DNA from: an uncultured Bacilli bacterium
GTDB taxonomy: Bacteria > Bacillota_I > Bacilli_A > RF39 > UBA660
DNA length: 56,601 nucleotides
Direction of reading: 5' to 3'
Assembly: GCA_947589495.1 (NCBI GenBank)
Contig: CANQAK010000005.1
Coordinates: 1-56,601 of the forward strand
Position 1 is the stretch's first letter, and each line of letters opens with the position of its first letter. Position numbers and translations under genes: made by a program. Positions 14,094 to 18,125 of the stretch are shown here, in pieces. Below the pieces are notes generated by a model that was not told the DNA's origin, ran no database searches, and saw only the letters and a list, made by a program, of their open reading frames with translations.

Positions 14094-14172
14094 AAAAGGG
14101 AGGTCGTTACTTCTCCCAGGGTTAAGTTAAGTCTATTTTTACGTCTTCGTTGACGATTTTTTTATTTGTTAT
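14094..14172. repeat. R element copy 1, directly downstream of surface gene A
   Basis: near-identical to 15799..15877: gggaggtcgttacttctcccagggttaagttaa(g/a)tctatttt(t/a)acgtcttcgttgacga. Confidence 0.9.
14098..14117 (-). terminator. Terminator-like hairpin in repeat R1
   Basis: minus-strand GGGAG-N10-CTCCC followed by TTTTATTTTG. Confidence 0.6.
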
Positions 14173-15422
14173 GAAACGATGTAAAATGGAGTTCCTATTT
14201 CTCCTGTACCTTCGAGTACCACATCGGACTTCAGATAGAAGACCGGGCGGATAGCATATCCAAGGCTTAAATTGCTGTAGTCAACGGCTCCACTTGGGCC
14301 CACCCACCACGCAGAGAAGGCAGCAGTCCCGGCAGCGTTGTTTCGACCCATACGAGTCATGGTCCATTCGAATCGCTCATCTGTAGATGTTTCTCCTCCA
14401 TTATTACTCATATGTATCCAACTTGTTTTACATTGTGCAGCATCTTGCCTACAACTCGATTCTGATCCTGTTCCACTTAATGCATATGCATAATCATGTA
14501 TATACATTAATCCTATTGGTTTTGATTCTGTCTTTTTTTCCCATTTTTTATCTGTTACTTCTTTTCCAGTTATTGGATCAATATATTTTGTATTTGCTTG
14601 ACCTGTTTCTATTTTATATACTGTCTCTGTTGGTATATTTGAATTTATATAACCATAACTTATATCTCCATATAACCATTGTTGTGGTTCTATTTTATTT
14701 TGTATACTACTATCTAATGTATTATAGTATGTATTATTTAATGTGCTAAATATTGTACTTTCTGGCCACTCTTTGTTTGTTGAATAATTATCCCACCATT
14801 GATGTGTACTTTCATATCTTGTTTGTTTTATTACTTTGATATTTCCTTCTTCTGTTATTCCTATGATTCGATACATGTTTTCATCTGTTCCACTACTAGT
14901 TGCATTACATCCATTTAGTCCCACTTCATTCAAACATATATAATTTTTTACTTTATTTCCTTTTAATTCATCTACACCTTGGTAACGGTACATTCCTCCA
15001 ATTGGTTCATCACTTAAACTTTCATCATTTGTTCTTGAATCTATTAATTCTTGTGGATTCTCTGGTGTTTTTTTATCAAAATATAAATAACAGTATGATG
15101 TTTTATTTGTACTTACTGTTATTTTATCACTTTCATATGTTAAACTATTTTCTATTTTTTCTCCATTATTATCCATACATCCTGACTTTTCTGTATTTAA
15201 CTTATAATCATTTCCTGGAAATATTGATTGTTCTTTATATTCTCCATCTTCCCCTTTTACCATAATAGCAAACATATTATTTTTTTCAACATCTTTTAAG
15301 CTAACTGTATCCAATGTTGCATTTACCGATTTATTCTTGCTTATAAAAACTATACTTGTTGTTAATAATAATATTAGAATTAATAATGTAATAGTTATTT
15401 TCTTATTCATATTTTTATCCAT
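14169..15422 (-). CDS. Membrane-anchored surface protein A with variable C-terminal segment (CLec/DUF6273-like by pattern)
   Basis: N-terminal TM (ITITLLILILLLTTSIVFI); WWVGPSGAVDYSNLSLGYAIRPVFYL C-terminal pattern; homologous to both halves of 15881..18028. Likely start at 15410 (ATGAATAAG, RBS aggatgg). Confidence 0.85.
   Translation of the reverse strand: MDKNMNKKITITLLILILLLTTSIVFISKNKSVNATLDTVSLKDVEKNNMFAIMVKGEDGEYKEQSIFPGNDYKLNTEKSGCMDNNGEKIENSLTYESDKITVSTNKTSYCYLYFDKKTPENPQELIDSRTNDESLSDEPIGGMYRYQGVDELKGNKVKNYICLNEVGLNGCNATSSGTDENMYRIIGITEEGNIKVIKQTRYESTHQWWDNYSTNKEWPESTIFSTLNNTYYNTLDSSIQNKIEPQQWLYGDISYGYINSNIPTETVYKIETGQANTKYIDPITGKEVTDKKWEKKTESKPIGLMYIHDYAYALSGTGSESSCRQDAAQCKTSWIHMSNNGGETSTDERFEWTMTRMGRNNAAGTAAFSAWWVGPSGAVDYSNLSLGYAIRPVFYLKSDVVLEGTGEIGTPFYIVS
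14229..14363 (-). other. GC-rich candidate variable segment A
   Basis: coding ACCATGACTCGTATGGGTCGA...CGCCCGGTCTTCTATCTGAAG; about 56% GC by hand count; CGN arginine codons. Confidence 0.65.
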
Positions 15423-15433
15423 CCTATATGTCC

Positions 15434-15509
15434 ATAGGTAATATTTACCTATACAACAATTACATTATAGGCAAATTATGCCTAAAAGTCAATAGGTAAA
15501 ATATAACTA
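15434..15509. promoter_or_regulatory. Three-operator divergent promoter region, module A
   Basis: TAGGTA-ATATT-TACCTA (15435-15451), TAGGCA-AATTA-TGCCTA (15468-15484), TAGGTA-AAATA-TAACTA (15493-15509, imperfect). Confidence 0.8.
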
Positions 15510-15534
15510 TATTAAAATGGTGTTGGTGTTATAA

Positions 15535-15762
15535 ATGAATAGATTAAAAGAGATTCGAGAAGACAAAGATTTATTTCAAAAAGATATAGCAGAATATCTA
15601 AATGTTGATCAATCTAATTACAGTAAATATGAATTAGAAAAAATTAACATTCCCATTTCTATACTTATAAAATTAGCAGATTTTTATAATACAAGTGTTG
15701 ATTATTTAGTATATAGAACTGATGATAGAAAACCTTATCCTAAAAGTAAATTATCTAAATGA
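15535..15762 (+). CDS. Small XRE-family HTH regulator, module A
   Basis: 75 aa HTH_3: LKEIREDKDLFQKDIAEYLNVDQSNYSKYELEK; C-terminal DRKPYPKSKL shared with the 18134 paralogue. Confidence 0.93.
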   Translation: MNRLKEIREDKDLFQKDIAEYLNVDQSNYSKYELEKINIPISILIKLADFYNTSVDYLVYRTDDRKPYPKSKLSK

Positions 15763-15766
15763 GATT

Positions 15767-15790
15767 CTACCAAATATGGTAGTTTTTTTT
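15767..15790 (+). terminator. Intrinsic terminator after XRE gene A
   Basis: CTACCA-AATA-TGGTAG followed by T8. Confidence 0.85.
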
Positions 15791-15798
15791 ACAAACAA

Positions 15799-15877
15799 AA
15801 AAGGGAGGTCGTTACTTCTCCCAGGGTTAAGTTAAATCTATTTTAACGTCTTCGTTGACGAGTTTTTATTTGTTTTA
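15799..15877. repeat. R element copy 2, directly downstream of surface gene B
   Basis: direct repeat of 14094..14172. Confidence 0.9.
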
Positions 15878-15880
15878 TTA

Positions 15881-18028
15881 TCAATTTGCTATGTAGAATG
15901 GTTCTAACGTTGTTCCTTTTCCTTTTAATTTAATATCATTTGTTAGATAGAAGACGGGACGAACAGCAACCTTACGTTCTAAGGTGCTGGTGTCGACACG
16001 ACCGTCTACATACACAAACCACGCATCGAAGAAATTAAGGGAGTCATTACGCCGACCCACACGCGACATGGTCCATTCATAATCTGATGTATTTCCATTT
16101 TGGTACATATGCATCCAGCCACTATCTCTACATTTATTATATGAATCTGCTCCTTTAGAATTATGGCAACCATCTTGGTTTGCTTGATAATAATAATCAT
16201 GTAAGTACATTAATCCTATATTGGCTTCTTTTGTATTTGTCCATTTCTCTCCTGTTACTTCTTTCTTATCAGATGTTGTTGGTCCATAGTATTTGGTATT
16301 CATGTCTCCACTTTCTACTTGATATATTTGATTTGCTGTTAATGTTCCTACAAAATTATAATGCATATCTCCATAATACCAGTTCCATTTTTGTATTTTT
16401 CCTTGTATTTCACTATCTAGTGTTTTATAAAATGTTTCATTTAAAGTTGTATATACATCACTTCGAGGCCATTCTGGACATCCACTACTTCCACAATAAG
16501 AATCATCATAACGTCCGCTCCATGCATATGTACTTGTTCCGTTGTTCGTAAATTTTGTTTGCTTTATTACTTTGATATTTCCTTCTGGAGTTATTCCTAT
16601 GATTCGGTACATATTGTCATCATAACCATTATTTTTTGCATCACATCCATTTGTTCCTACTTCTTTTAAGCATATATAGTTTTTTACTTTATTTTCTTTT
16701 AATTCATCTGCTCCTTGGTAACGGTACATTCCTCCAACTAAAGTTTTACTTAACGCATCTGTAGTATCTTCTAATCTTAATGTATTTTCTTGATCTGTTG
16801 GTATTACTTCTGTTAATGTATATGGATCTTCTACTGTTCCACTTCCATATAATGTTATATTACTTTTTAAATAGAATACTGGGCGAAGCGCAATAGCACC
16901 TACCAAGGAGCCGTTGGTGATTTCACCGTCCGTATCCACATACCATCTCCAGAAGAGAACAGAGTTATAATTACCCCGACCAACACGCGTCATGGTCTGT
17001 TCTCTTGCCTCATTTCCAGATGTTGTTATTCCATTATTTTTTATGTGCATCCAACCATTATCTTTACATTTTTGATACGAATCTTTTCCTTTTGCATAAT
17101 GACAACCATCTTCGTTTGCTTGATAATAGTAATCATGTAAATATATTAATCCTATATTAGCTTTTTCATTCATTTGAGTCCAGCTTTCATTTGTTACTTC
17201 TGCTGTATTACTTGATTTATGTCCATAGTATTTTGTATTTTTTGCTCCTGTTTCTACTTGGTATATTTCATTTGCACTTAATGTCCCTACAAAATCATAA
17301 TGCATATCTCCATACCACCAGTTTTGTGGTTCTATTTTATTTTTTATTTCTTCATTTAATGAATTGTAAAATGTGGTATTTAATGTTGTATATAATTCAC
17401 TTTCTGGCCATTCTGGACAACCATCTGTTCCACATGTTGAATCGCTATCATTTGAGTTCCATGCATAATTTCCTATACTTGTTTGTTTCATGACTTTTAT
17501 ATTTCCATTCTCTGTGATTCCTATAATCCTATACATTTCATCACTTTGACTTGAACATTTTCCTTCGAAACATAAATAGTTATCTACATCTGGTCCTTGG
17601 TAACGATACATACCTCCTACAGGATTAATACTTAATCCACTGCTCTTTTTTAATTGTTCTATTAATTCTTTTGCATTATTCTTATCAAAATATAAATAAC
17701 AATATGATGTTTTATTTGTAGTAAGAGTTACTTTGTTACTATCTGAATCATATGTTAAGCTGTTTTCTATTTTTTCTCCATTATTATCCATACATCCAGA
17801 TAATTTTTCATTATAGAAATAATCTTCAGGCCATTCATTAGAGTTACTTACTTCATATTCTCCACTATCATTTTGAAGCATTATTGCAAACATATTATTT
17901 TTTTCTACTTCTTTTAAACTAACTGTATCTAATGTTGCATTTACCGATTTATTTTTTCTTATAAAAACTATACTTGTTGTTAATATTAATAATAAAATTA
18001 TTGTTGTAATAAATATTTTCTTTTTCAT
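15881..18028 (-). CDS. Membrane-anchored surface protein B with two tandem copies of the domain found in surface protein A
   Basis: MKKKIFITTIILLLILTTSIVFIRKNKSVNATLDTVSLKEVEKNNMFAIM; two repeats GGMYRYQG...MYRIIGIT...RPVFYL. Start moved from 18106 to 18028 because the upstream extension would run through the operators and an RBS (ttggaaag) precedes 18028. Confidence 0.85.
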   Translation of the reverse strand: MKKKIFITTIILLLILTTSIVFIRKNKSVNATLDTVSLKEVEKNNMFAIMLQNDSGEYEVSNSNEWPEDYFYNEKLSGCMDNNGEKIENSLTYDSDSNKVTLTTNKTSYCYLYFDKNNAKELIEQLKKSSGLSINPVGGMYRYQGPDVDNYLCFEGKCSSQSDEMYRIIGITENGNIKVMKQTSIGNYAWNSNDSDSTCGTDGCPEWPESELYTTLNTTFYNSLNEEIKNKIEPQNWWYGDMHYDFVGTLSANEIYQVETGAKNTKYYGHKSSNTAEVTNESWTQMNEKANIGLIYLHDYYYQANEDGCHYAKGKDSYQKCKDNGWMHIKNNGITTSGNEAREQTMTRVGRGNYNSVLFWRWYVDTDGEITNGSLVGAIALRPVFYLKSNITLYGSGTVEDPYTLTEVIPTDQENTLRLEDTTDALSKTLVGGMYRYQGADELKENKVKNYICLKEVGTNGCDAKNNGYDDNMYRIIGITPEGNIKVIKQTKFTNNGTSTYAWSGRYDDSYCGSSGCPEWPRSDVYTTLNETFYKTLDSEIQGKIQKWNWYYGDMHYNFVGTLTANQIYQVESGDMNTKYYGPTTSDKKEVTGEKWTNTKEANIGLMYLHDYYYQANQDGCHNSKGADSYNKCRDSGWMHMYQNGNTSDYEWTMSRVGRRNDSLNFFDAWFVYVDGRVDTSTLERKVAVRPVFYLTNDIKLKGKGTTLEPFYIAN
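15944..16072 (-). other. GC-rich candidate variable segment B (C-terminal domain copy)
   Basis: coding ACCATGTCGCGTGTGGGTCGG...CGTCCCGTCTTCTATCTA. Confidence 0.65.
16868..16996 (-). other. GC-rich candidate variable segment C (N-terminal domain copy)
   Basis: coding ACCATGACGCGTGTTGGTCGG...CGCCCAGTATTCTATTTA; about 50% GC by hand count. Confidence 0.65.
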
Positions 18029-18048
18029 ATTTGACTTTCCAATCTTAT

Positions 18049-18125
18049 ATACAATAGATATTTTGTATCTTAAGTTGATTATACAAAACTTATTTTGTAT
18101 TGTCAATACAAAGCTTTAGTTGTAT
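18049..18125. promoter_or_regulatory. Three-operator divergent promoter region, module B
   Basis: ATACAATA-GATA-TTTTGTAT (18049-18068), ATACAAAA-CTTA-TTTTGTAT (18081-18100, perfect), ATACAAAG-CTTT-AGTTGTAT (18106-18125). Confidence 0.82.

Follow-up and report, generated by a model that had tools for sequence, protein, structure and literature searches.

Three hypervariable segments (A, B and C) of the window, the whole 56,601-nucleotide stretch of DNA analysed here, are very probably variable regions (VRs) of a cellular DGR that acts in trans from another contig of the same genome, C7, and serves about 40 paralogous genes, including the two that hold these segments. The genome assembly comprises 1,112,776 bases in 51 contigs and is 88% complete. 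We identify the segments as targets of a remote DGR from the C7 locus with its template repeat (TR), the adenine-biased mismatch between the segments and that repeat, the number of targets in the genome, and the conservation of the system in relatives. A first-pass annotation, made from the window alone, had suggested that a remote DGR might serve the segments in trans; the locus that it predicted was found on C7, and the window VRs are adenine-biased against its TR.

The three segments occupy the places first described for them, on the minus strand and inside two ORFs (Table 1). Both genes are intact, and both proteins begin with a hydrophobic anchor; for the second gene, the true start is probably an ATG near 18028. 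The poorer fit and the extra codon already remarked for segment A were also recovered. In agreement with the earlier observation that the window holds no reverse transcriptase (RT) or template repeat, zero RT or TR matches were obtained on the whole window contig.

Table 1. Positions of the target genes and variable regions in the window, and of the DGR locus on contig C7.
Feature	Position	Strand	Description
Target gene 1	14169..15422	-	417 aa; N-terminal membrane anchor and one DUF6273-like domain
VR A	14232..14360	-	Near C-terminus of target gene 1; 43 codons, TR plus one codon
Target gene 2	15881..18106	-	741 aa from TTG; membrane anchor and two tandem DUF6273-like domains
VR B	15944..16069	-	C-terminal domain of target gene 2
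VR C	16868..16993	-	Internal domain of target gene 2
DGR locus	about C7:10636-14874		Target gene, TR, MutS-I-like ORF, Avd, RT
TR	C7:12372-12497 (= L002:7373-7498)		Non-coding, adenine-rich repeat

The VRs differ from their surroundings in both composition and mode of divergence. Their GC content is 50–59%, compared to 30–32% for the remainder of each domain and 25% for the window. Over the 32 codons that follow GGTCGG, B and C are identical at 13, 20 and 22 sites for codon positions 1, 2 and 3, respectively, and A occupies 7 of their 55 invariant positions; the original hand counts were thus exact. Outside the VR, the B- and C-bearing domains diverge in the ordinary manner (identity 0.74, 0.77 and 0.64 at codon positions 1, 2 and 3), and the inverted codon pattern is therefore confined to the VR.

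With scores of 22.7 and 16.4 bits against DUF6273 (PF19789), the window proteins fall under the Pfam gathering cut-off of 23.5, and we therefore name them DUF6273-like only. The resemblance to DUF6273-type repeats noted at first reading thus held weakly by sequence (9.6e-5, just below the Pfam cut-off), and may extend to the fold: for a mediocre AlphaFold2 model of the B domain (pLDDT 71, pTM 0.80), the best BFVD match was a DUF6273 phage protein (E 9e-7, TM 0.37), while the PDB yielded one IgA peptidase entry (E 1e-4). The C-type-lectin fold expected for such targets was not significantly recovered by Foldseek, in which C-type lectins appeared solely at E above 1; given the mediocre model, this argues only weakly against a lectin fold. 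The target proteins may be receptors or adhesins, with the variable face binding a ligand.

The rest of the genome was searched for the anticipated components, namely an RT, an avd-like gene and a template repeat of ~130 bp in which the variable columns hold A; all were found together on C7. Genome-wide search identified a single RVT_1 protein, the C7 RT (375 aa; RVT_1 61.5 bits), whose motifs IGNMTSQ and YMDD fit the DGR-type [ILV]GxxxSQ motif and an intact YxDD site. Its closest PDB match is 8ub7 (E 3e-23), which we take to be the RT of Bordetella phage BPP-1. Within L002, the stretch C7:5000-24000, the gene order is a target gene ending in a fourth variable region (VR D), the TR, a MutS-domain-I-like ORF, an Avd-like ORF, the RT and a 95-aa ORF, with another target gene farther on. 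In translation the TR reads RIGRNSSSSTNFNAWNVNSNGNVNNNNLNNTNAVRP, with many AAY codons. Past the common GCGGTTCGCCCAG, VR D runs on as TCTTCTAT and the TR as CCCACTAT, a candidate 3′ initiation (IMH) region; downstream of each VR there is either a second domain or a stretch of ~20 codons that ends the gene. The Avd-like ORF beside the RT (118 aa) was matched in three libraries (bAvd 7.6e-6, DivGenRetAVD 7.6e-9, phrog_3206 8.9e-17), with the Pfam and NCBIfam scores below their curated cut-offs and the PHROG match at the last of these values. The MutS-domain-I-like ORF (128 aa; Pfam 24.2 bits versus a cut-off of 20.6) extends into the start of avd at each of the three loci examined (L002:7764-8150, L087:9288-9677 and L093:7201-7590), which suggests that it is a fixed component of this DGR. 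Relatives also have counterparts of the 95-aa ORF (L002:9588-9875), which overlaps the RT gene at its end; Pfam and NCBIfam searches returned no match for it. A phage origin of the C7 DGR was also considered, and was rejected as a search of IMG/VR found no relative of the RT.

Comparison with the TR revealed that mismatches concentrate at template adenines. In VR D, 15 of 37 adenines are changed but none of the 68 other bases, and several remote VRs on other contigs carry 17–22 adenine changes alongside 3–7 at other bases. The same bias occurs in the window: 26 of 37 adenines and 13 of 68 other bases are changed in VR B (Fisher p 3e-7), 27 and 18 in VR C (p 5e-6), and 25 and 22 in VR A (p 5e-4). 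Where AAY codons are altered, the third base of the TR is kept in 13 of 14 cases in VR B (p 3e-6) and in 10 of 13 in VR C (p 0.001). As a template control, each 42-codon VR was taken as template in turn and compared with the TR. Of all these candidate templates, the TR ranked first in pooled adenine bias (log2 odds 1.94, versus 1.38 for the runner-up), and B and C showed fewer non-A mismatches to it than to any other, although for VR C the single-pair bias was slightly higher with two other VRs as template. Ordinary diversifying selection and recombination among paralogous surface proteins, without reverse transcription, would have ample gene-conversion material in ~40 paralogues within one genome. 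However, a non-coding, A-rich copy beside an RT, the restriction of VR D mismatches to template adenines, and third-base retention in altered AAY codons are not predicted by such a process, which we consider highly improbable.

Under the favoured reading, in which the C7 DGR acts in trans, the locus would transcribe the TR, and the RT with Avd would copy it into cDNA with random bases opposite adenines. This cDNA would then take the place of VRs that have matching flanks in ~40 DUF6273-like paralogues with surface anchors, both window genes among them. Because the AAY codons of the TR would limit change to codon positions 1 and 2, the inverted codon signature would follow from the template itself. 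The GC richness of the VRs would likewise stem from a TR that is higher in GC than the genome, plus A-to-N change, and VRs without recent rewriting would drift back towards AT. Such mutagenic retrohoming is deduced from the mismatch patterns, and the system might still be active.

A translated search for the VR pattern in extracted genome stretches recovered 53 distinct VRs of 41–44 codons, a lower bound given that a DNA search matched a few more that the pattern missed. About twelve genes carry two VRs, and thus by our own count about 40 DUF6273-like genes are involved; these genome-wide counts rest on search matches and extracted stretches. VR lengths differ by whole codons, in keeping with the AAC-repeat slippage discussed for BPP-1 (PMC12875486). 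Non-A changes range from 0 to 36 of 68, and the VRs grade from pure A-to-N copies to AT-drifted forms, with the three in the window intermediate. VR GC declines with increasing non-A change (rho -0.70, p 2e-7). In VRs with few such changes, G>A and C>T predominate, in the direction of the genome's AT bias, as expected if sequences drift to AT after writing. We also considered whether rewriting is confined to the C-terminal domain of two-domain genes, an idea rejected on finding no consistent non-A difference between internal and terminal VRs, as read by eye.

The window VRs carry 13–22 non-A changes and so were not newly copied from the TR in its present form. Their non-A mismatch of 19–32% is well above the mean of 1.5–2.6% for reported TR-VR pairs (PMC6642488), and they are therefore old, drifted or derived from another template; probably, their last rewriting was not recent, or it used a TR variant that predates the present one or is missing. 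One sub-case of the main reading, not exclusive of it, is that the window VRs were once diversified by the DGR in genes that are now beyond its reach and only drifting. The non-A changes, the accompanying fall in GC and the prevalence of G>A and C>T would all suit such relics, and leftover targets are known in Treponema denticola, in strains without the core DGR (PMC4891356). However, the window genes are intact, and the 3′ boundary of VR B, CGTCCCGTCTTCTATCT, also occurs in a remote VR with 4 non-A changes (L080). In addition, some of the excess is concentrated at columns that are altered jointly in many VRs, a pattern suggestive of another TR version rather than of random drift. Overall, we regard relic status as conceivable but somewhat doubtful.

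The non-A columns shared by many VRs are the second positions of codons 7, 8, 10, 11 and 32, where the commonest alternative is A; at codon 21, T is present in 29 of 42 VRs and C in the TR. This co-variation looks like writing from another version of the TR, and B and C may have been written by an earlier or missing variant with extra adenines (e.g. AAT AAC versus AGT AGC in the present TR). Alternatively, the ~12% of the genome absent from the assembly could hide another DGR or TR that serves the window genes in place of the C7 template; in relatives, between two and four TR-like repeats lie close to the RT, and the recurrent non-A columns 22, 25, 31, 34 and 97 resemble adenine sites of a different TR. 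Nevertheless, the genome search yielded one RT only, and a probe with the inferred extra adenines recovered the known TR best, followed by known VRs and short chance-level matches, with no second TR found in the 88% complete assembly. We therefore consider a second system unlikely. Returning to the C7 locus as the source, it is plausible, if slightly short of probable, that in this reduced 1.1-Mb gut bacterium one trans-acting RT and a small, changing template set constitute a genome-wide surface-variation system, in which more than 50 dispersed VRs are rewritten at different times and unrewritten VRs preserve earlier template versions.

Goat and rabbit samples yielded further uncultured Bacilli in which the DGR locus is syntenic. 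In one relative (L093/G032), four TR-like repeats stand ahead of the corresponding set of MutS-I-like, Avd and RT genes; one VR there differs from TR3 of that genome at 20 of 36 adenines and 0 of 63 other bases. By our own reading of search matches, an intact RT is present in 13 of 38 genus genomes. The median number of target-domain matches across these 38 genomes is 38 with an intact RT versus 16 (p 5e-4, only indicative as the genomes are related and incomplete), and related species range from 0 to 69 matches. One genus genome, G005, has 47 target-domain matches and no RT match; either its RT lies in an assembly gap, or the targets outlived their DGR. Between the template repeats of the L093 relative (L093:3335-6191) lie genes that by eye resemble the Rpn/PD-(D/E)XK transposase-nuclease family; these genes may be responsible for the spread or duplication of the repeats.

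The mechanism, adenine-specific retrohoming, is already known, and what sets this system apart is how many dispersed targets one RT has. The DGR of Bordetella phage BPP-1 is alike in its RT, Avd, TR/VR arrangement and adenine-specific change, but has a single phage target (Mtd) adjoining the RT and, to our knowledge, no MutS-I-like ORF. MutS-like accessory ORFs in DGRs are reportedly described in one survey. Remote targets (PMC4891356, PMC7517822), several TRs or many VRs (PMC6642488) and DUF6273 targets (PMC11792537) have precedents. The T. denticola DGR (PMC4891356) is likewise chromosomal, with one TR, one RT and remote surface-protein targets, but isolates have two to seven target genes, compared to ~40 genes and at least 53 VRs here, plus the Avd and MutS-I-like ORFs. 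Cyanobacterial DGRs (PMC7517822) also place C-terminal VRs in dispersed paralogues, with remote targets assigned via TR-VR identity; however, 121 apparently diversified genes are spread over 21 genomes, far less densely than here, and the variable proteins are mostly predicted to be cytosolic and often regulatory, whereas ours are membrane-anchored. Faecalibacterium prophage DGRs (PMC11792537) similarly carry VRs at the C-terminus of DUF6273 domains, but are phage-borne with one or two VRs, in contrast to a cellular locus with synteny kept across the genus. Where earlier DGRs have few remote targets, here one RT and one TR are matched by at least 53 VRs, spread over ~40 surface-anchored genes of a 1.1-Mb genome. 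We found no higher count of dispersed VRs in the DGR literature compared; PMC6642488 holds larger VR counts, its main example being repeats within one ORF. Scans allowing fewer than four non-A substitutions (PMC6642488) would miss most VRs of this genome, the three window VRs among them. Graded non-A divergence could provide a relative clock for rewriting, which would make testable how one RT divides its activity among many targets, and what effects template change has.

A 23-base element, CGTCAACGAAGACGTTAAAATAG, is present in the window at 14133-14155 and 15838-15860 (minus strand) and at L002:9858 (plus strand). Several target genes have the element downstream of them, and another copy stands at the end of the RT operon; a terminator-like hairpin usually comes next. 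In 18 of the 38 genus genomes, dispersed copies of the element or of a close variant are present. Rfam gave no convincing family match. A role as a DGR cruciform was rejected: folding was no better than that of shuffles, and the element is not DGR-specific, occurring also away from recognised target genes, including at apparent rRNA leaders in relatives. One such leader is adjoined by the variant CGTCAATGAAGACGTTAAAATAA.
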